Of a stretch of 64,000 nucleotides of DNA, positions 53,685 to 63,876 are shown piece by piece (position 1 is the stretch's first letter; each line of letters opens with the position of its first letter). Source of the DNA: an uncultured Clostridia bacterium. Its GTDB lineage: Bacteria > Bacillota > Clostridia > Christensenellales > Borkfalkiaceae. The translations under genes and the position numbers were made by a program. The notes beneath the pieces were generated by a model that saw nothing but the letters and a program-made list of their open reading frames with translations, was not told where the DNA came from and made no database searches. The stretch is from assembly GCA_944368155.1 (NCBI GenBank), contig CALVWW010000001.1, forward strand, positions 62,001 through 126,000, given 5' to 3'.

Positions 53685-54698
53685 TTATTTAGCCGCGAGC
53701 ATATTTTCAATAGAAATTCCAAACCCGCGCGTCGGGTCGTTTATAAACACATGAGTTACCGCGCCTATCAGTTTACCGTTCTGCACTATCGGGCTGCCGC
53801 TCATTCCCTGTACTATACCGCCGGTTTTGTTTATGAGGTCTTTGTCGTCAATCCTTATAACAAAATTGCGGTTATCTTTGTTATCCTTTTCTATTTTTAT
53901 TATTGAAATTTCGTAGCATTCCCTTTTATTTGAAGCAACTGTAGAATAAATCTCCGCTTTACCTGGCGTCACATTGTCAATATCTCCCGCTTCGATTTTA
54001 GTAAGGCCGGCGCAATCATAATTTTTATCTAAGTTGCCGTATATCCCGCATGCGGAATTCAAAGTTGCCGAACCAATAGTTTTACTGTTCTGAAATGCAC
54101 CCTTTAGTTCTCCCGGTGTACCGCGCACGCCGCGTTTTACATCGTAGATTATGCATCCGTATAGCGTTCCGCCGTTAATTTTTGTTACATTACCCGAAGT
54201 ATCTGTGACAGGATGACCGAGAGACGCAAATGAATTATCTGTTTTGTTGATATATGTCACTGTCCCTACTCCGCTCAGACTGTCGCGTACCAGCACGCCG
54301 ACTTTCATTGCGCCGCTTGACATGTCCTTAGCCGGCGTTATTGTAAGCTCCAACTCTTCCCCGTCGCGAATTATTGTCATTTTTGCGCTTTTTGAATTTT
54401 CCAGCAGCTGGGTAACATTTTCACTTGAAGTTACCTCTCTGCCGTTGATACTCTTTATAACATCACCTGTTTTCAGTCCTGCGTTCCTCGCCGGGGATAC
54501 AAGGCCGTCCTCCGTCAAAACATCGCACATGCCTACTACTTCTACAGTAGTTGTATCCAGCACAAAACCAGCGGGAAAACCTCCTAAATATAACTCATCG
54601 GGTTTAACGGGTGCGGCACCGGTAAGCGCAAATATGCAGCACACTGCGGCAATTATTATAATTAACAGCTTTTTTAATGAAGTTCTTTTGCTCGCCAT
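53685..54698 (-). CDS. spoIVB: SpoIVB peptidase (sporulation signal protease)
   Basis: About 337 residues from the ATG at 54698 (MASKRTSLKKLLIIIIAAV); a TTG at 54734 is less likely. Order: N-terminal membrane anchor, PDZ domain (GLVSPARNAGLKTGDVIKSING, residues about 75-115), then the S55 serine protease with SLGHPVTD (His) and GGIVQGMSGSPIVQNGK (Ser). In the intermembrane space of the forespore it cleaves SpoIVFA and so triggers sigma-K. The gene follows recN as in most spore formers, but spo0A is not the next gene; here spo0A is 30 kb away. Confidence 0.94.
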   Translation of the reverse strand: MASKRTSLKKLLIIIIAAVCCIFALTGAAPVKPDELYLGGFPAGFVLDTTTVEVVGMCDVLTEDGLVSPARNAGLKTGDVIKSINGREVTSSENVTQLLENSKSAKMTIIRDGEELELTITPAKDMSSGAMKVGVLVRDSLSGVGTVTYINKTDNSFASLGHPVTDTSGNVTKINGGTLYGCIIYDVKRGVRGTPGELKGAFQNSKTIGSATLNSACGIYGNLDKNYDCAGLTKIEAGDIDNVTPGKAEIYSTVASNKRECYEISIIKIEKDNKDNRNFVIRIDDKDLINKTGGIVQGMSGSPIVQNGKLIGAVTHVFINDPTRGFGISIENMLAAK

Positions 54699-54815
54699 AA
54701 AAATATTTTGCGCCGCTTTTGCGGATATATACAAAAAACTTTAAACATTGTCCGGTGGTTTTGCCGGCAAAATTTAAAGCGTCGCAAAATTGCGGCGCCC
54801 GTTTAAACAGGTGAT

Positions 54816-56492
54816 TTAATTATACTGAGCAATAAGCTCTGAGGCGTGTTTCCTGGCTGCTTCGGTACTCCCTCCTCCTGTCAGCCGTATTATTTCGTCA
54901 ACTTTTGCTTCGCCCCGGATTTCGCTTACAGTTGTTGTAGTGGTTCCTGCGTGCTCGACTTTTTTTATTAGGAAATTTTTGGCGCCCGCCGCACAAATCT
55001 GCGGCAGGTGCGAAACAGCTATAATCTGAGTGTGTTTTGAAATAGCGACAAATTTTTCTGCTACGCTTTTTGCAGTTACACCGCTTATGCCGGCATCGAT
55101 TTCGTCAAATATATAGGTCGAAATGCCGTTGAGGTCTTTAAGACATGCCTTGACTGAAAGCATAAAACGGCTGAGTTCACCGCCGCTTATAACTTTGTTA
55201 AGCGGCTTAAGGGGTTCGCCTGCATTAGCAGAAAACATGAAATGTACCTTGTCGCAACCGTTTGCACTGTTTAGTCCTGCTGTTCCGCGGTTATATTCTT
55301 CGAAATATACTTCAAATTTAGCGGCAGGCATATTCAAATCTGTAAGTTCGCTTTCCACTGCTTTGCAGAATTTCCCTGCGCCTGCTTTCCTGATTGCGGA
55401 AAGTGCGACACATCCTTCAAAAATTTTATCGTCGAGTTCAAAGAGGCGACTTGTCAGTTTTTCTGCTGCTTCCTCGCTGTCGGAGAGCAATTCAAATTCG
55501 TTCCCCGCCCTGTTTCTGAACTCTATAATTTCCTCTATGGTAGAGCCGTATTTCTTTTTTAGGCTTCTGATAAGGTCTAACCGCTCTTCTACTCTGCGTG
55601 CCTCGGCTTCGTCGAAATCCAATTCGTCAGCCATATCAGCAAGAGTGTCTGAAAGGTCCTGTATTTCAGCTAAAGCAGCCTCAAGGCGTTCTTCAACGGC
55701 AGAATAAGCATCGTTTAAGTCGGATATTCCCGCCATAAGCCGTCTCGCGGCTGAAATGCTGTCGCCGCTGCCGCCGTCACCATTTAACGCAGACATCGAA
55801 CCTGCTATTGCTTCGGCAATTTTCTCGGTATTATCTATTATTTTTCGTTTTGCAAGCAGTTCTTCTTCCTCGCCCGCAACTAGTCCGGCCGCATCAATTT
55901 CCTTTATCTGATATGCAAGAAGGTCAATCCTCCTTGCTCTTTCGGCGCCGTCGCCTCCAAGCTGTTGAAGCTTTCTATTGCAATCACGCTTTTCGGCAAG
56001 CAGCGAGGTCAGAGCCGATTTTATTTCAGCAAGCTTATCCCCGCACAGACTGTCGATGACGGCAAGCTGGTTGCTTTCGTTAAGAAGGGCAAAATGCTCG
56101 CTTTGTCCGTAAACATCCACAAGGTGCTGTGAAACGCTTTTCAGCATAGCAGCCGTCACCGTATTGCCGTTAATTTTTATATTTCCTTTGCCGTCCGCGG
56201 TGTATTTTCTGGTAATTATTATTTCTCCGTCGCTGTCTATATCAAGTTCCGCAAGCGCCTTTGCGGCAGCGGAATCAGGCGCAACAGCAAATTCGCCACG
56301 GACAAAAGCTTCGCTTTCACCGTAGCGTATCATATTTTTATCGGCTTTGCTTCCGAGAACAAAGTTGAGCGAATCTAAAATAACCGATTTGCCTGCGCCC
56401 GTTTCGCCCGACAGAATATTCAAAGCGGGGCCGAATTCTATATTTGCGTTTTCAATCAGCGCAATGTTTTTTATGGCCAATCTTTCAAGCAT
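54816..56492 (-). CDS. recN: DNA repair protein RecN
   Basis: 558 residues, SMC-like. Walker A is LSGETGAGKSVILDSL (residues about 27-42), followed by a long coiled coil with the family segments IKEIDAAGLVAGEEEELLA and KKKYGSTIEEIIEF, and then the signature VISGGELSRFMLSVK with Walker B IYIFDEIDAGISG and the HLPQICAAG switch. It acts early at double-strand breaks. It begins 6 bp after argR; argR-recN-spoIVB is a typical Firmicutes order. Confidence 0.96.
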   Translation of the reverse strand: MLERLAIKNIALIENANIEFGPALNILSGETGAGKSVILDSLNFVLGSKADKNMIRYGESEAFVRGEFAVAPDSAAAKALAELDIDSDGEIIITRKYTADGKGNIKINGNTVTAAMLKSVSQHLVDVYGQSEHFALLNESNQLAVIDSLCGDKLAEIKSALTSLLAEKRDCNRKLQQLGGDGAERARRIDLLAYQIKEIDAAGLVAGEEEELLAKRKIIDNTEKIAEAIAGSMSALNGDGGSGDSISAARRLMAGISDLNDAYSAVEERLEAALAEIQDLSDTLADMADELDFDEAEARRVEERLDLIRSLKKKYGSTIEEIIEFRNRAGNEFELLSDSEEAAEKLTSRLFELDDKIFEGCVALSAIRKAGAGKFCKAVESELTDLNMPAAKFEVYFEEYNRGTAGLNSANGCDKVHFMFSANAGEPLKPLNKVISGGELSRFMLSVKACLKDLNGISTYIFDEIDAGISGVTAKSVAEKFVAISKHTQIIAVSHLPQICAAGAKNFLIKKVEHAGTTTTTVSEIRGEAKVDEIIRLTGGGSTEAARKHASELIAQYN

Positions 56493-56498
56493 AATTAT

Positions 56499-56951
56499 TC
56501 AAAGCAGATATTCCCTGAGCTTGTCGGCAACAGCGGCCGTATGTTCGGTACTGTCGACAACTACCAGCACAGTGTCGTCGCCCGCAACGCTGCCGATTAT
56601 TTCATCGAGTTGCAGCGAATCGACGAAAGAGCCTCCCCCCTGTCCGTTACCGCGCATTGTTTTGATTACAATAAGATTATTTGCATGGTTTATGCTTATT
56701 ACCGATTCCCTGAAGAGGTTTATCATGCGCGGGCTGAGTTCTTCCTGCGCACCCTCAAGGCTGGCATATTTATACTTTTTTACCGAGCCTGAAACTTTGA
56801 AAAGTTTAAGGTCCTTGATATCGCGGGAGATGGTAGCCTGCGTAACATTGAAGTTGAGCTTATTGAGCTCACTGCAAAGCTCTTCCTGTGTTTCTATTTC
56901 GTTTTTAGATATGATTTCAAGAATTTTTGCCTGTCTTGCGTTTCTGTACAC
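56499..56951 (-). CDS. argR: Arginine repressor
   Basis: 150 residues, the standard length. The N-terminal winged helix is ILEIISKNEIETQEELCSEL and VTQATISRDIKDLKLFKV; the C-terminal hexamer/arginine domain has VGGDDTVLVVVDSTEHTAAV (in the form SVAGDDTVLVV). It represses arginine biosynthesis and activates catabolism in response to arginine; the gene is placed between nadK and recN, as in Bacillus (ahrC-recN). One base separates it from nadK. Confidence 0.95.
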   Translation of the reverse strand: MYRNARQAKILEIISKNEIETQEELCSELNKLNFNVTQATISRDIKDLKLFKVSGSVKKYKYASLEGAQEELSPRMINLFRESVISINHANNLIVIKTMRGNGQGGGSFVDSLQLDEIIGSVAGDDTVLVVVDSTEHTAAVADKLREYLL

Positions 56952-56952
56952 T

Positions 56953-57765
56953 TTATCTGCTCCATTTGCTCAGTTTTGACAACAGTTTATCGAAGAAGTT
57001 AACTCTATCAGAAACTATAAATTCTGTATAACAGTCTGATTTTTTAACATTCAATTCCAGATGTGATTCATATTCGCCGATTACAATACCGTCGACCGAT
57101 ACATTTACCGATGTATTTTCTTTATGATAAAGAACCTTAAGTTCCGACTCATCTGAGTATACAATCGGCCGCGAGTGCAGAGAATGTGCGCACAGCGGCG
57201 TGAGTATAAATGCGCTGATATCGGGGGTAAGTACCGAGCCGCCGGCTGCAAGCGAATATGCTGTAGAACCCGTGGGGGTGCTGACGATAATACCGTCGGA
57301 AAGATAGTTATCGACAAGCGAGCCGTCGATTGTCGCCGACAGGTTTATGGTGTTGCTGTATTTATTGCCATAGGTGCTTCTCTGGATTACAAGGTCGTTC
57401 AGAGCGAGAAAATTCTTCCCTTCAATATTGACCGAAAGCATACTGCGTCTTTCTGTAGAATATTCTCCTCTGCACAAAAGTTCAACGGCTTCGTCGAGCT
57501 TCTCCTGCTCAAACTCAGCAAGAAAACCTATATGGCCGTAATTTATTCCCATTATCTTTATACCGCGGCGCGCACACTCGGCAGCCATTGTAAGAATAGT
57601 TCCGTCGCCGCCGAGCACCATTAAAATTTCTATTCCCGTTAGTTCAGCAGGGGAACAGACGGCGCGGCAACCAATGCCGAACTCTGCAAGTTTCTGCCTA
57701 ATTCTGCCGACAAGCTTAAGGTTGTCGGGCAGGTAATTTTTATTAAAAGATATCCCCACTTCCAT
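56953..57765 (-). CDS. nadK: NAD kinase
   Basis: About 270 residues from the ATG at 57765 (MEVGISFNKNYLPDN); an upstream in-frame start at 57816 would include a hydrophobic leader that is really the promoter region. The GGDGT motif is in MVLGGDGTILT and the second signature in LNDLVIQRS, then IIVSTPTGSTAYSLAAGG. It makes NADP from NAD and ATP. The -10 element is only 10 bp from the ATG, so the leader is very short. Confidence 0.94.
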   Translation of the reverse strand: MEVGISFNKNYLPDNLKLVGRIRQKLAEFGIGCRAVCSPAELTGIEILMVLGGDGTILTMAAECARRGIKIMGINYGHIGFLAEFEQEKLDEAVELLCRGEYSTERRSMLSVNIEGKNFLALNDLVIQRSTYGNKYSNTINLSATIDGSLVDNYLSDGIIVSTPTGSTAYSLAAGGSVLTPDISAFILTPLCAHSLHSRPIVYSDESELKVLYHKENTSVNVSVDGIVIGEYESHLELNVKKSDCYTEFIVSDRVNFFDKLLSKLSKWSR

Positions 57766-57775
57766 ATCGATGAAT

Positions 57776-57804
57776 ATTATACAGCAAAATATGCAAATAT
57801 GCAA
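57776..57804 (-). promoter_or_regulatory. Promoter of nadK with a very short leader
   Basis: TTGCAT (57804-57799), 17 bp and TATAAT (57781-57776); the ATG follows after 10 bp. Expected leader: about 3 nt, with no ribosome site. Confidence 0.7.
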
Positions 57805-57851
57805 TAAAGTCTGCAAAATTTTTTGGTATTTTGCAGACTTTTTCTTTTAAA

Positions 57852-58607
57852 TCAAAGTTTAACGTTTTTAATCAGGTTTTCAAAATGCACGGCAGTTCCG
57901 TTTTTTTGCAACAATATGACATATTCCATATTTTTATCTCTGATTATCGGCGCATTTGTAAGTGCAATCGGGGCTAGGCCGCATTCGATGCTGAAATCAT
58001 AAATTTTTTTTATTATGTCTCTGTGCTTATCTGCACCGCGCACTATACCGTTTTTTCCGACTGTGCGGCTCTCGCACTCAAACTGCGGTTTAATTAGTGC
58101 GAGTACGTATTTTGCGTGGCATAGTACTTCGCAAACAGGCTTTATAAGATATGTAAGAGATATGAAGCTGACATCAATAACTATCCCGTCAAGCTCTTCT
58201 TCAAATAAACCGGGAGATAGATTTCTGGCATTGAAGTTATCTATCACCACCACATTTTTATCGAGAAGAGACTTATCGAGCTGGCTTTCTCCTACGTCAA
58301 TACAGTATACTTTTTTAGCTCCCGATTTTAAAAGGCAATCGGTAAACCCTCCCGTACTCGCCCCTAAATCGGCAAAAACTTTGCCTTCAACGGAAAAATC
58401 AAAGTCGCATAGGGCCTTATGCAATTTGTATCCACCGGCAGAGACAAAAGAAATTTTCTCGTCGTCTGTAGTTACGTCATCCCCTTCTTTAACGTCATAA
58501 GAAGCTGGACGGACGACGCCGTTCACGCGCACTATTCCGCGTCCGATTGCTGCGGCAGCCTTGCTGCGCGAACCGAATTTTTCAGCAAGATATTTATCCA
58601 ATCTCAT
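57852..58607 (-). CDS. TlyA family rRNA methyltransferase/hemolysin-like protein
   Basis: 251 residues. S4 RNA-binding domain (MRLDKYLAEKFGSRSKAAAA) then an FtsJ-like methyltransferase with the K-D-K-E-type residues in VFADLGASTGGFTDCLLKSG, YCIDVG and DGIVIDVSFISLTYLI plus ALIKPQFEC. TlyA methylates ribosomal RNA 2'-O positions. Its ATG overlaps the dxs stop by 4 bp; dxs-tlyA-nadK-argR-recN is the normal order. Confidence 0.94.
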   Translation of the reverse strand: MRLDKYLAEKFGSRSKAAAAIGRGIVRVNGVVRPASYDVKEGDDVTTDDEKISFVSAGGYKLHKALCDFDFSVEGKVFADLGASTGGFTDCLLKSGAKKVYCIDVGESQLDKSLLDKNVVVIDNFNARNLSPGLFEEELDGIVIDVSFISLTYLIKPVCEVLCHAKYVLALIKPQFECESRTVGKNGIVRGADKHRDIIKKIYDFSIECGLAPIALTNAPIIRDKNMEYVILLQKNGTAVHFENLIKNVKL

Positions 58608-60334
58608 ATAAGTGTTTTAATATATGCCACAATTTCATTTACATCCAGCCCGTAACTGTCCATCAGTTCTTCAACGTTTCCGTGTTCGATAAATTTATCT
58701 TTATATGCGAATATTTTTACGGTGCGTTTACTATCCGAGTAATACGAGGCTATCATTGAACCAAAGCCTCCGATTAGCATATTGTCTTCAATGGTAACAA
58801 TATTGCTCTCCTTAAGTCCTTCAAGCATACGATAATCAAGAGGTTTTACAAATCTTGCATTGATTACGGCAGGCGCTTTTCCGCAAGACTCCTGTATGCA
58901 GCCGCTTGATTTCAGAGCGCGCGTTAAAGCTCTTTCCCCGCATGCAAGTATTGCAACAGAACAATCGCCCTTCTGCGAAATTTCCCACTTCCCAATTTCA
59001 ATATCGTTATTTCCGCCAAATTCATGCGAGCATGCGCGCGGATATCTAATTGCAAGAGGTCCTTGATATGTGGCGCTGAATTCAAGCATTGCGGCAAATT
59101 CGGATATGTCCTTCGGCACAGCTATTGTCAGATTGGGAATGAACGTCAAAAACGAGAGGTCAAATACTCCCTGATGCGTTTCACCGTCTGCTCCGCTTAC
59201 TCCTGCCCTGTCTATGCAGATGGTTACAGGCAGATTCTGACTGCAGATATCCAGTACTATGCCGTCAAACGAACGCTGTAAAAATGTTGAATAAACTGCG
59301 TAATAAGGCTTGTAGCCCTGGGTAGCCATAGCTGCACACAAAACGGCTGCGTGCTCTTCGCAAATTCCGACGTCTATCGACCTGTCGGGATATTTTTCGA
59401 AAAATTGACTTAGTCCCAGGCTTCCCGTCATAGCGGCAGTCACCGCTACAATTTTATCGTTGCTTGCGGCAAGTTCAGTAAGTTTCTCGCCCAAAACTTC
59501 CGAGTATTCCGTCGTGCCGATAGAGCAGGAATCGGCAATACCGTGGGTCGCTTCGGGGTCGTCCTCGCACAGCGGATATCCCTTCCCCTTTTTTGTCATA
59601 ACATGCAGTATGACGCTTCCATCTTTAAGCTTTTCCTTCACTTTTTTAAGCTCGCTTATCATAGCGGCAACATCATTGCCGTTATAAACGCCGTCATACT
59701 CCAATCCAAAGCGTTCAAAAATGCCGGCTCTGCGGTTTTTATGATACCTTTCTTCCACATCGTTTTTCAACGCTTCAAGATATTCATGCATACTGCCTAC
59801 CGTGGGGGAGATAGACATTCCGTTGTCATTTAAAATTATCAGTATATTAGTTTTCAGTTGCTTCAGGCTGTTAAAAGCCTCGTATACAAGTCCGTTGTTG
59901 AATGAACCGTCTCCTATCAACGCTATCACATTAAAATTTTCGCCGGAAAGGTCGCGAGCCTTTGCAATGCCCAATGCGGCAGAAATCGAGGTGCCGGCAT
60001 GCCCTGTGTTATAGCAGTCAAATTCACTCTCACTGCGTTTAGGAAAACCGGAAAGGCCGCCGCGCCTTCTCAGCGAAGAAAATTTATCGGCTCTGACCGA
60101 AAGTATTTTGTGCGCATAACACTGATGCCCTACATCAAAAATTATTTTATCTTTCGGAAAGTCGAATACATAATGCAGAGCAACCGTGAGTTCCACAACA
60201 CCGAGATTTGACGAAAGATGCCCTCCGTTTTCCATAACCGAGCCTATTATCTGCGTCCGTAACCGCCCGCAAAGATTTTCAAGCTCTTCCATGCTCATAG
60301 CCTTGAGCTCTTTGCCGGAAATATTATCCATCAA
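58604..60334 (-). CDS. dxs: 1-deoxy-D-xylulose-5-phosphate synthase
   Basis: 576 residues, shorter than the usual 620-640. It condenses pyruvate and glyceraldehyde 3-phosphate with thiamine diphosphate, the first step of the MEP isoprenoid pathway. Seen: SSNLGVVELTVALHYVFD, DVGHQCYAHKILS, ALIGDGSFNNGLVYEAF (ThDP/Mg site), the catalytic Glu in GICEEHAAVLCAAMA and TICIDRAGVSGADGETHQG. It is part of the block with ispA and the OLE RNA. AAGGGG precedes ATG 60334. Confidence 0.96.
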   Translation of the reverse strand: MMDNISGKELKAMSMEELENLCGRLRTQIIGSVMENGGHLSSNLGVVELTVALHYVFDFPKDKIIFDVGHQCYAHKILSVRADKFSSLRRRGGLSGFPKRSESEFDCYNTGHAGTSISAALGIAKARDLSGENFNVIALIGDGSFNNGLVYEAFNSLKQLKTNILIILNDNGMSISPTVGSMHEYLEALKNDVEERYHKNRRAGIFERFGLEYDGVYNGNDVAAMISELKKVKEKLKDGSVILHVMTKKGKGYPLCEDDPEATHGIADSCSIGTTEYSEVLGEKLTELAASNDKIVAVTAAMTGSLGLSQFFEKYPDRSIDVGICEEHAAVLCAAMATQGYKPYYAVYSTFLQRSFDGIVLDICSQNLPVTICIDRAGVSGADGETHQGVFDLSFLTFIPNLTIAVPKDISEFAAMLEFSATYQGPLAIRYPRACSHEFGGNNDIEIGKWEISQKGDCSVAILACGERALTRALKSSGCIQESCGKAPAVINARFVKPLDYRMLEGLKESNIVTIEDNMLIGGFGSMIASYYSDSKRTVKIFAYKDKFIEHGNVEELMDSYGLDVNEIVAYIKTLI

Positions 60335-60357: not shown

Positions 60358-61062
60358 TCACTTTTCTTTTACAAAGAATGTGGTGAACTTTGCAAACGCA
60401 AATGCAATCTTGCTGTTGTACTTTATCGAAATAGGTTTGCCGAAGGCCTTGCCTCCGACAGTCAGCGCACCAATAACAGCACTTACGAGAATGGATGCCG
60501 CGATGCCCTCGATCGAGCCTTCGGCAAAGCCGAAATACGCAGCAAGCACGGCGCCCGCTGAACCGCTTACAATACCGCAGATATCGCCGATTACATCCGA
60601 GAAAATGCTGGCTATCTTTTCAGCATGTTTGCAGAAAGTTACGGCACGTCTTGCTCCTCTAATCTTGCGCGAGGCCATTGCGTTGAAACCGTCTACATCA
60701 CATGACACAACAGCGTTTGCAATTATGTCGCAGCCGATATTCAGAATCAGCAATACAGCCAACACCGTTATGCAGATGTAAACCGGACTGTCGTTTACGG
60801 CTATTTCAGTCAAAAAACTGAAGAGAACGCTTAAGAAAAAGGAAAGGACGAGTATCGTAAGCCCCCAGCTTAGCCACACGGGCACCCTTTTCTTCTTCTT
60901 TCCTCTCCGCTTTTTATTATTGCTTTTTCCCTTTACAGCGTTTACTGAGCTTTCCCCTTGCCGGATTTCATAGTCCTTATTATCGCGGCCGGAAGCGCAA
61001 CTTTCTTCTGTATTTTCAGAAGCTGCAGAAGTATTAAATTGATGCTGTTCGCTTTCATTCAT
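60358..61062 (-). CDS. oapA: OLE-associated membrane protein OapA
   Basis: 234 residues. A hydrophilic start (about 1-60, ending in a basic NNKKRRGKKKKR stretch) is followed by four predicted membrane helices: VWLSWGLTILVLSFFLSVLF, VYICITVLAVLLILNIGCD, the region GDICGIVSGSAGAVLAAYFG and IAASILVSAVIGALTVGG. The loop FNAMASRKIRGARRAVTFCKHAEKIASIF (quoted in parts) is basic, and SDVIGD has the DxxxD spacing that I recall as typical of OapA. OapA binds OLE RNA and brings it to the membrane. Its place directly behind the OLE RNA and before dxs is the diagnostic synteny. Confidence 0.85.
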   Translation of the reverse strand: MNESEQHQFNTSAASENTEESCASGRDNKDYEIRQGESSVNAVKGKSNNKKRRGKKKKRVPVWLSWGLTILVLSFFLSVLFSFLTEIAVNDSPVYICITVLAVLLILNIGCDIIANAVVSCDVDGFNAMASRKIRGARRAVTFCKHAEKIASIFSDVIGDICGIVSGSAGAVLAAYFGFAEGSIEGIAASILVSAVIGALTVGGKAFGKPISIKYNSKIAFAFAKFTTFFVKEK

Positions 61063-61076
61063 AAAACTTTCCGATA

Positions 61077-61107
61077 AATTAAAATACGCACAATCTGATT
61101 GTGCGTA
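61077..61107 (-). terminator. Terminator at the OLE RNA 3' end
   Basis: On the minus strand TACGCACAAT, loop CAG and ATTGTGCGTA form a 10-bp perfect stem followed by TTTTAATTT. oapA begins 15 bp further, so oapA expression would need read-through or another promoter. Confidence 0.85.
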
Positions 61108-61672
61108 AAAAAGTCAATATAAAGTGGCTTATATTAAATAAACTTTGCGGCTTTAGGTTCGGTAGGATTTCCCCCGTGCTCACTTCCCGTCGCCGAAGAA
61201 GCAGTTTCCTTTTAAGAGCCCGGTCGCACAGTTGCCTTGTGCGAAACCGAATCGCCACTGAGTCCACACCGTAATCTCTAATACGTTGACAGTCTAGAAG
61301 CTTTCCTTGACAGCTATTGCAGGGTTTATCCTCTTTTGCAGCACCAATTTCAAACAGCGATAGCTCATACGGCATGGCCGCGCCGGACGTGCTTTGTTCT
61401 GTTATCCGCTGGCACCACTCAAGGCAGGCTACTCTGTGCCGAGCTTGCGCCTGGCAGCAGGTTTATCCGCAAAATGCGGCCTCCGCGGTAAATGGGTTGA
61501 CTGTCATATGCCATTATGCAGTTCCCATAGACCTTTACTCCCAGCATTCACCCGCTTTTGGGCAAAGCAAGCAAATACCAGAAACTTCATAGTTATGCCC
61601 TTCGACGGTCTTTTAACCCCGCCTTCACGTCTGCAATATCTGACTAGAATACTGCGCCACTGAATATTACTA
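61080..61672 (-). ncRNA. ole: OLE RNA (ornate, large, extremophilic RNA)
   Basis: About 590 nt of GC-balanced, structured sequence with no credible gene, on the minus strand between ispA and oapA. This is exactly the position of OLE RNA in other Firmicutes (folD-ispA-ole-oapA-dxs-tlyA), and the size fits the usual 600 nt. It has its own promoter and an intrinsic terminator. Hairpins such as TCGCACA/TGTGCGA (61224-61244) are visible. OLE RNA forms a membrane ribonucleoprotein with OapA that helps growth under stress (cold, alcohol, Mg). Identified from synteny, size and partner, not by covariance search. Confidence 0.85.
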
Positions 61673-61677
61673 TTAAT

Positions 61678-61706
61678 ATATTATCACATGCAGTAAAAAA
61701 TGTCAA
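61678..61706 (-). promoter_or_regulatory. Promoter of OLE RNA
   Basis: TTGACA (61706-61701), 17 bp and TAATAT (61683-61678), just after the ispA stop codon. It gives a start near 61671. Confidence 0.75.
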
Positions 61707-61715
61707 ATAAATTTT

Positions 61716-62594
61716 TCAATTCTCACGGTAGCGCACAAATGCCACAATGTCGCGCATGAAGGAAGTATCCCCCTCTATTCCGTCGAGCATCCTGAGGCAT
61801 CGGTCAAACATGATATCGGCGTAAACACGGCATTGGTCTGTACCGTAGAACGTTACATAGGTGAGTTTATTTTCCTGCTTGTCCTTGCCTGAGGTTTTTC
61901 CAAGGTTTTTGAACGAACCCTCTTCGTCGAGAATATCGTCGACAAGCTGGAAAAGTCTGCCCAAATCTTCGCCGAATTGCCGAAGCTCCAAAAAATATCT
62001 GCCACCCGCAAGAATGGCGGGCACTGCAACCGCAGCAGATATGAGCTTGCCCGTCTTATTTTTCACTATATAGTCGAGCATGTCGCCGTCTTTGATATTT
62101 TTTTCTGAGCAATACAAATCTGCCGACTGGCCTGCAATCATGCCTTTTACGCCTGCACAATCGCACATAAATTTTGCAGCGTCGGCATAGAGCTTACCGT
62201 CTGCACAACGCTCAAAAAGAGTATAATATGCAGTATTCAGCAATCCGTCGCCGGCGAGCACTGCATTCCCGGCCCCATATACTTTGTGATTCGAAGGCCT
62301 GCCGCGGCGGAAGTCGTCGTTATCCATTTCAGGAAGGTCGTCATGAATGAGCGAATATGTGTGTATGAGCTCCAAAGCAAGTGCATAATCCTCTATTCCG
62401 CAGTTTTTTGCACCGACAAGCTCGGCAGAAGCAAGCATGAGCACAGGGCGAACTCGCTTACCGCCGCTTTTTAAGCTGTATTTCAGACTTTCGTCGAGTA
62501 TTGCCGGCTTGCACTCGAGCTCATCATAAAATTTTTTCAGTCGCGCTTCAAACGAGGCGAGATATTCCCCGTATTTTTCTTTGAATGAATACAA
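61716..62594 (-). CDS. ispA: Polyprenyl (farnesyl) diphosphate synthase
   Basis: 292 residues. First Asp-rich motif SLIHDDLPEMDNDDFRRG (DDxxxxD type of bacterial FPP synthases, residues about 85-100) and second FQLVDDILDEEG; also GGKRVRPVLMLASAEL, and KTGKLISAAVAVPAILAGG. The residue pattern before the first motif (ELIHTYSLIHDD) is of the short-chain type, so the product is probably farnesyl or geranylgeranyl diphosphate. It lies with dxs in the same block and precedes the OLE RNA. It follows folD by 6 bp; xseA and xseB, often between them, are missing. Confidence 0.94.
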   Translation of the reverse strand: MYSFKEKYGEYLASFEARLKKFYDELECKPAILDESLKYSLKSGGKRVRPVLMLASAELVGAKNCGIEDYALALELIHTYSLIHDDLPEMDNDDFRRGRPSNHKVYGAGNAVLAGDGLLNTAYYTLFERCADGKLYADAAKFMCDCAGVKGMIAGQSADLYCSEKNIKDGDMLDYIVKNKTGKLISAAVAVPAILAGGRYFLELRQFGEDLGRLFQLVDDILDEEGSFKNLGKTSGKDKQENKLTYVTFYGTDQCRVYADIMFDRCLRMLDGIEGDTSFMRDIVAFVRYREN

Positions 62595-62600
62595 AGCAGG

Positions 62601-63446
62601 TCAGCTCCTTGTTGCGGAAAGATATGTGTTGTACATCAGCATTGTTATGGTCATAGGGCCAACGCCGCCCGGAACGGGGGTTATGTAGGAGCACTTAGCT
62701 TTTACATTTTCAAAGTCGACGTCACCGCACAACTTTCCGTTTTCATCGCGGTCCATACCCACGTCGATAACTACCGCTCCCTCTTTTACCATGTCTTCCG
62801 TTACAAATTTAGCTTTGCCAAGGGCAGCGACGATTATGTCGGCTCCGGCGCATATTTCCTTTAGATTTTTAGTTTTGCTGTGGCAGAGCGTGACTGTTGC
62901 ATTTGCGTTTGTAAGCAACATTGCCATCGGCTTCCCGACTATATTAGAACGGCCGATAACAACTGCACTCTTGCCGGAGATGCCGATATTTTCGCTTTCA
63001 AGCATCTTCATGACTCCGTTTGGCGTACAAGCTACGAGGCAAGGCTCATTCATGGCAAGTTTACCAATGTTTTCGGCAGAAAAACCGTCGACATCCTTTG
63101 AAAACGGGATGAGTTCGAGTATTCTCTTCGCATCGAGCTGCGAAGGCAGAGGAAGCTGAACAAGTATTCCGTTTATCTTATTATCAACAGAAAGACTCCT
63201 GATGAGTTCTTCCACCCTCGACTGGGCTGTATCCTTGTCGAGGTAGTATGCAAAAGATTTTATTCCAACTTCTTCGCATGCCCTGATTTTGTTTCTCACA
63301 TATACCTGCGAAGCGGGGTCTTCACCCACAAGCACAACGGCAAGTCCTATCTCTTTGCCGCTTTCACTCTTATATTCTTCAATTTTTTTCTTTATATCCA
63401 TGCGCATTTCGTGCGCAAGTTTTTTGCCATCGATAATTTTAAACAT
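62601..63446 (-). CDS. folD: Methylenetetrahydrofolate dehydrogenase/cyclohydrolase
   Basis: About 281 residues from the ATG at 63446 (MFKIIDGKKLAHEMRMDIKK), which follows AAGGAGGGGG; a start at 63557 would add 37 residues unlike the family. Signature parts: VGEDPASQVYVRNKIRACEEVG with the catalytic Lys, GILVQLPLP, KDVDGFSAENIGKL, AVVIGRSNIVGKPMAMLL and TPVPGGVGPMTITML. It interconverts 5,10-methylene- and 10-formyl-tetrahydrofolate. Placed after nusB as in Bacillus. Confidence 0.96.
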   Translation of the reverse strand: MFKIIDGKKLAHEMRMDIKKKIEEYKSESGKEIGLAVVLVGEDPASQVYVRNKIRACEEVGIKSFAYYLDKDTAQSRVEELIRSLSVDNKINGILVQLPLPSQLDAKRILELIPFSKDVDGFSAENIGKLAMNEPCLVACTPNGVMKMLESENIGISGKSAVVIGRSNIVGKPMAMLLTNANATVTLCHSKTKNLKEICAGADIIVAALGKAKFVTEDMVKEGAVVIDVGMDRDENGKLCGDVDFENVKAKCSYITPVPGGVGPMTITMLMYNTYLSATRS

Positions 63447-63477
63447 CGGCGGCCCCCTCCTTACAAATAAAAATTTC

Positions 63478-63876
63478 TTACTGTTTGTCCGCGATGACCG
63501 ACGAAAGTATGCCGCTGATAAATGACGCGGACTTTCCGGAAGAGTAGCGCGAGGCAATGTTTGCCGCCTCGCTCACCGAGACTTTGTCGGGAATATCGTC
63601 ACAATACATGATTTCGGCAACGGCTATAAACAGTACACTCCTGTCAGCGGGAAACAGGCGTACTTCAGGGAAAGCGACCGATTTACTGTCTATTACCGAA
63701 GAAATCTCATCCTGGTGCTCTTCAATAAGCGTAAGCAGCCTGTCGCAGTACTTTACGTCGTCCTCGTTAAGTTCGCCGGCTTTGTATAAACCGAGCCTGA
63801 AGCTTTTATCCACAGGCTGAACAAATTGTGAAGAAAATAATATTTTAAATAAAGTTTCTCTTGCCTTAGCTCTCAT
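63478..63876 (-). CDS. nusB: Transcription antitermination factor NusB
   Basis: 132 residues, all helical, standard length. The start RAKARETLFKILFSSQFVQ and the C-terminal VSVSEAANIASRYSSGKSASFISGIL (in parts) are typical. It binds boxA with NusE in rRNA antitermination. It lies between an asp23-like gene and folD, the usual Firmicutes order. The end of the gene is 32 bp before the folD start. Confidence 0.93.
   Translation of the reverse strand: MRAKARETLFKILFSSQFVQPVDKSFRLGLYKAGELNEDDVKYCDRLLTLIEEHQDEISSVIDSKSVAFPEVRLFPADRSVLFIAVAEIMYCDDIPDKVSVSEAANIASRYSSGKSASFISGILSSVIADKQ

Follow-up and report, generated by a model that had tools for sequence, protein, structure and literature searches.

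The DNA analysed here, called the window throughout, is a stretch of 64,000 nucleotides from an uncultured Clostridia bacterium, and between ispA and oapA on its minus strand it carries the gene of an OLE RNA. Few bacterial RNAs of unknown biochemistry are as large as OLE; it binds the proteins OapA, OapB, OapC and bS21, and it guards Halalkalibacterium (H.) halodurans against Mg2+, cold and ethanol stress. A covariance scan of the whole window with all Rfam families matched the OLE family (RF01071) at 61108-61676 (minus strand) over 569 nt, with an E-value of 6.2e-118 and a score of 413.2 bits against a gathering score of 50; the published OLE score bands rest on another covariance model and are not directly applicable to this value. 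The match takes in the model from 1 to 616 of its 616 positions, and a genome-wide search returned a single OLE copy in the 1.73-Mb genome. A reading frame of 98 aa inside ole (61079-61375) has no support as a gene, since its changes follow the base pairs of the RNA. A search of phage records found none matching OLE RNA. That this locus is an OLE RNA gene is practically certain. The genes around it, in their order along the minus strand, are as follows.

63478..63876, minus strand: nusB (PF01029)
62601..63557, minus strand: folD, true start probably further downstream (PF02882, PF00763)
61716..62594, minus strand: ispA, polyprenyl synthetase (PF00348)
61108..61676, minus strand: OLE RNA, full length, model 1-616 (cmscan 413.2 bits, covariation, single copy in genome)
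60358..61062, minus strand: oapA, 234 aa, with a basic tail at the N-terminus and four long helices (synteny, DxxxD, predicted fold)
58604..60334, minus strand: dxs (TIGR00204)
57852..58607, minus strand: tlyA (PF01728, PF01479)
56953..57816, minus strand: nadK (PF20143, PF01513)
56499..56951, minus strand: argR (PF01316, PF02863)
54816..56492, minus strand: recN (PF02463)
53685..54734, minus strand: spoIVB (TIGR02860 above cut-off, PF05580)

An earlier, sequence-only reading of this DNA had suggested a structured non-coding region of about 590 nt, probably OLE. The region is real, at the 569 nt given by the Rfam model; the covariance match is decisive and falls to RF01071 and not to another RNA family, and the structure covaries among relatives. 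The same reading had claimed synteny with ispA, oapA, folD, dxs, tlyA, nadK, argR and recN, and Pfam and NCBIfam models name all of these neighbours apart from oapA, setting the ole-oapA pair in a cluster of isoprenoid, folate and tRNA-modification genes. It had also pointed to the lack of xseA and xseB; neither lies between folD and ispA, which directly adjoin each other. Its description of OLE as known was right, and as rare is a relative matter: OLE was found in 133 of the 297 genomes of the order in our census, each at least 90% complete, and it has been reported in 2,822 Bacillota genomes (PMC11332333). OLE RNA being already known, the locus adds a well-supported example from host-associated gut Clostridia, and one that is not from an extremophile; its partner proteins can be distinguished by where each is present or absent.

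By its OapA, the closest named relative of the host is Candidatus Coproplasma stercoripullorum, a Clostridia MAG (94%), and most other OapA relatives are uncultured Clostridia MAGs. The host is a Clostridia species of the gut and a close relative of Candidatus Coproplasma, and its membership of the genus is suggested by these matches; by known habitat it is not an extremophile. Some genes of the cluster vary among relatives. In congeners that lack OLE (L097-L116), the folD-like gene before ispA is ~30-46% identical to the folD of the window, and the neighbouring genes are much more similar. The best dxs match in G006, G013, G014, G017, G024 and G034 is a distant copy with ~50% identity over its first part; these distant copies lie mostly on another contig than ole, and dxs seems to have been replaced in those genomes.

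OapA and its occurrence with and without OLE

The flanking gene had been described as coding for a basic four-helix membrane protein, and the structure model agrees: the N-terminal tail is basic, and four long helices are predicted (residues 62-88, 93-119, 147-181 and 184-214). The model search that had been proposed for OapA gave it no name, no Pfam or NCBIfam model naming this 234-aa protein; its assignment as oapA is supported instead by order-wide synteny, relatives of the protein adjoining OLE throughout the order, by the DxxxD motif and by a CNNM-like fold. DxxxD has been called distinctive of OapA (PMC11332333), and all 19 of the relatives that were aligned have it without variation. 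The best fold match of the model, which is of moderate confidence (mean pLDDT 65.7, pTM 0.51), is the CNNM protein MtCorB (7m1u and 7m1t, Foldseek ranks 1-4), with a VIA Z of 9.3 over 136 aligned residues at 3.4 A. Chance arrangement of helical bundles gives Z up to ~8, and therefore the sequence evidence weighs most for the identity of oapA. A sequence-profile search found no relatives of OapA in the PDB, and the link to CNNM proteins is based on the fold, together with weak matches to Pfam CNNM models in some relatives in the order. Two stretches of the protein matter for what follows.

60643..60681, minus strand: loop AMASRKIRGARRA, residues 128-140, candidate OLE contact (comparison of OLE-linked and orphan OapA)
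60583..60597, minus strand: DxxxD motif DVIGD, residues 156-160 (alignment of relatives)

The loop follows helix 2 and carries the motif AMASxKxxGAK, which is conserved in OLE-linked OapA: M129 in 24 of 25 sequences, a basic residue at 133 in 24 of 25, G136 in 22 of 25 and a basic residue at 138 in 23 of 25.

Within the genus the RNA and the protein come and go together. OapA was found in 21 of 37 genomes, and OLE, whole or partial, in every one of the 21. Where congeners without OLE were examined, ispA lies immediately next to dxs, which means that the ole-oapA unit is missing as a whole. In the tree, the OLE-bearing species make up one clade (support 0.99), and the one loss nested within it is that of G025. 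Of the 15 genomes of the genus lacking OapA, 10 have a CNNM reading frame of at least 400 aa, vs 0 of the 21 bearing it. This agrees with the published anticorrelation of OLE and MpfA; with one clade and one nested loss, however, it amounts to roughly one comparison and not 36, and is largely one split in the tree. Short CNNM forms of 335-388 aa occur in the OLE-bearing G006, G008, G014, G017, G019 and G036, and forms of 424-535 aa in OLE-lacking congeners. In G010, G025 and G028 (93-96% complete) no OLE, OapA or CNNM protein was found.

Metagenome contigs often end inside ole (L120-L127, L169 and further loci of OapA relatives), probably due to its conservation between co-occurring species, and such breaks mimic absence or truncation of the RNA. 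The partial OLE sequences of G009, G011, G016, G021, G022 and G032 were rejected as size variants for this reason, their contigs ending inside ole, and G015 and G281, also with contig breaks, were rejected as cases of OapA without OLE.

Across the order the pairing is looser in one direction. OapA accompanies OLE in 132 of the 133 OLE-bearing genomes, and about 40 further genomes have a strong OapA match and no OLE (family f6 accounts for 22 of them, f26 for 15, f24 for two and f8 for one); when the OLE search was relaxed in 39 of the OapA-only genomes, nothing scored above 11.7 bits. At 11 loci of f6, and in G043, G149 and G200, oapA keeps its usual position, flanked by ispA and by dxs or tlyA, which leaves no space for ole. 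Along loci L150-L160, L167, L168, L170 and L171 (f6, f8 and f24), oapA is in place, ole is absent and DxxxD is intact. In f26 the five unlinked OapA copies that were inspected are all away from ispA, and three of them adjoin a ribosomal L20 leader (matches of 46-51 bits, just under the gathering score); at L161, L164 and L166 it is the sole or the second OapA copy that does so. G083 has two copies, one of them OLE-linked. A published survey raised the possibility that OLE and OapA never occur apart and put apparent exceptions down to sequence that was incomplete or had been missed (PMC11332333), an account by which the contiguous oapA-only loci are hard to explain. A literature search, thin on subscription papers, found no prior paper on oapA without ole.

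DxxxD is intact in all the orphan OapA proteins inspected. The loop motif is rewritten in the orphans of f6 and f26 and largely kept in those of G043, G149 and G200. Mean net charge of the loop is 0.0 in the f26 orphan copies vs 3.7, and simple charge loss was rejected as a general rule, since the f6 orphans stay fairly basic; the claim therefore concerns the motif and not the charge. These alignments make the loop a candidate for contact with OLE, and OapA may be able to work in the absence of the RNA. We would put at about even the chance that OapA has an OLE-independent function and that the convergent loss of AMASxKxxGAK marks its OLE-engaging surface.

One view on which these orphans bear is that OapA is the working element, a CNNM-like metal transporter for which OLE is an optional regulator; OapA would then suffice by itself once OLE is lost, with MpfA covering the loss of both. 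Its CNNM-like fold speaks for this, as do the retention of oapA without ole in f6, part of f26, f8 and f24 and the keeping of DxxxD where f6 and f26 have lost the loop motif. Published genetics, however, put OLE and OapA in one pathway; the loop may have been lost by drift within families rather than with an RNA contact, as no more than two to four cases are independent; and the three most similar orphans, those of G043, G149 and G200, keep much of the loop. We regard this view as a serious contender that falls somewhat short of even odds. The persistence of OapA without OLE in about 40 genomes makes a strict one-machine view too simple. What the locus offers beyond the known OLE is this surrounding series of losses, in which the protein can outlive the RNA: its close relatives may have the full set, OapA by itself, or neither (often with MpfA instead), a natural series that makes testable both the role of OapA in the absence of the RNA and which part of it contacts OLE.

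The RNA, its signals and its other partners

To examine the fold, 38 OLE RNAs, drawn from the genus and from further families in its order, were aligned and the Rfam structure was mapped onto them; the alignment is sequence-made and not structure-fitted, and the pairing was taken from a single member as matched to the Rfam model. Standard pairs occupy 86.4% of cells, vs 73.7% on shuffling and 37.5-45.2% with the partners slid, and of the 139 base pairs given by Rfam, 98 have double-sided compensatory changes, a number that was reached in 0 of 500 shuffles. The predicted secondary structure of OLE is upheld by this covariation among relatives. The elements discussed below are placed as follows.

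61678..61706, minus strand: ole promoter TTGACA-17-TAATAT, extended TG (sequence and position common to 20 of 20 genus loci)
61592, minus strand: k-turn nucleotide equivalent to C85, the OapC site (numbering deduced from the Rfam model and PMC9723947)
61533, minus strand: k-turn nucleotide equivalent to G144 (mapped alongside C85)
61467..61479, minus strand: reduced P7 arm CCGCA-UUU-UGCGG, a 13-nt hairpin (sequence)
61376..61379, minus strand: L9.3 GGCC, symmetric kissing loop, dimer bridge B3 (sequence; at least 90% conserved in 38 relatives; PMC12286853)
61085..61107, minus strand: intrinsic terminator hairpin between ole and oapA (sequence and conservation)

The published dimer nucleotides, AAAA of L4 and GGCC of L9.3, are conserved among the 38 relatives; the L9.3 kissing loop is one of the dimer bridges of the published structure (PMC12286853). 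The G-C pairs of P6, which are needed for bS21 (PMC12054373), are unchanged in 38 of 38 RNAs. The region of the P7 arm measures 19-33 nt in the genus vs 35-52 nt in other families.

The promoter and the terminator that the sequence-only reading had noticed are both in place. The 3' end of the promoter is 2 nt upstream of the OLE RNA, and at all 20 genus loci examined the promoter stands 14-18 nt upstream of a conserved GUGG; promoter-like matches as such are expected by chance in a stretch of this kind (5 found vs 3.9 +/- 2.0 in shuffles). The terminator (61107-61085) reads TACGCACAAT-CAG-ATTGTGCGTA-TTTTAATTTA, a 10-bp hairpin with a T-rich tail, ~20 nt upstream of the oapA start codon. Most genus loci have the ACGCAC...GTGCGT hairpin 3' of ole, with compensated variation in the stem, and no terminator hairpin was seen in the ole-oapA gap of the other families examined; the predicted terminator is thus lineage-specific, as had been supposed. 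With promoter-like and terminator-like signals of its own, ole can, judging by these motifs, be a separate transcript.

A terminator at this place could also mean that ole is, in this lineage, a cis-acting leader that attenuates oapA through the RNA and the terminator and has little role in trans. Such a leader would fit the genus-specific hairpin ~20 nt before the start codon of oapA and the position of ole directly upstream of oapA in most relatives. What makes it quite unlikely is that compensation has kept the whole 570-nt fold, dimer and bS21 elements included, far beyond the needs of an attenuator, that other families do without a terminator in the gap, and that in H. halodurans OLE works in trans as an RNP (PMC10898510, PMC12054373).

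The partners of a membrane RNP are, with one exception, encoded in the genome. OapB lies outside the window at L134:7227-7550, between map and infA; its 107 aa match PDB 7k9b, "OLE-associated protein B" (phmmer E 2e-8). A search by KOW domain (PF00467) had given L24- and NusG-like matches only, and the absence of OapB that this implied was rejected on finding the gene between map and infA. The genome itself (G000) has bS21 (PF01165, E 1.2e-22). The exception is OapC, which is essential in H. halodurans: its family (L7Ae, PF01248) has no match in any of the 37 genus genomes, whereas 21 of the 24 other families in the order have matches. The idea that the k-turn was lost together with OapC was tested and rejected, the C85-G144 pair being present in 22 of 23 genus sequences; because the pair is retained although PF01248 is missing in the genus, use of the k-turn is probably independent of OapC. 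Cryo-EM has shown the k-turn to form without protein (PMC12286853), which is consistent with such use. That OLE is no more than a remnant in a genome undergoing reduction, its sequence still conserved but the gene being lost, would accommodate the missing OapC, the reduced P7 arm and the absence of ole-oapA from sister lineages, and is very improbable given that promoter, terminator and base pairs are constrained across the OLE-bearing clade, that C85-G144 persists and that OapA is intact.

The proposed OLE complex and its known counterparts

The explanation we favour is an OLE-OapA membrane complex that is free of OapC and whose RNA can come from a separate ole transcript; taken as a whole, we hold it to be very likely. 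By analogy with published OLE work, the 570-nt RNA would dimerise through its conserved loops and be held at the membrane by OapA dimers, OapB would help it fold, and it could meet bS21; that OLE assembles as a membrane RNP in this organism is, on this analysis, strongly favoured. OLE would form the large regulatory part of the complex and OapA, with the CNNM fold of Mg2+ transporters, the membrane part, so that in divalent-metal and stress homeostasis the complex might play the part that CBS and CorC domains play for MpfA. For this metal and stress role the case, as we read it, is evenly balanced. From the fold, the exchange with MpfA and the survival of OapA alone, we infer that OapA may be an OLE-regulated metal transporter or sensor. 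In this lineage the complex would work without OapC, and ole would be made as a separate short transcript and not only within the operon.

Three known systems invite comparison. OapA resembles the transmembrane domain of the MpfA and CNNM-CorC Mg2+ transporters (MtCorB, 7m1u and 7m1t); unlike them, it has DxxxD and an RNA partner and is without CBS or CorC domains. With the OLE of H. halodurans and Clostridium acetobutylicum the locus shares the full-length covariance match, the neighbours ispA, oapA, folD, dxs, tlyA, nadK, argR and recN, conserved dimer loops and bS21 G-C pairs, and the presence of OapA, OapB and bS21. It differs from them in the promoter and terminator of its own, the 13-nt P7 arm and the lack of OapC; the H. 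halodurans cluster is transcribed as one polycistronic RNA (PMC12265935). The published OLE variant 1 (PMC11332333) is similar in coming from gut bacteria with reduced genomes, in its short P7 arm and in missing OapC, whereas here neither P9 nor the 3' domain is shortened and the genome encodes OapB. The OLE of the window thus stands between the full-length form and variant 1.
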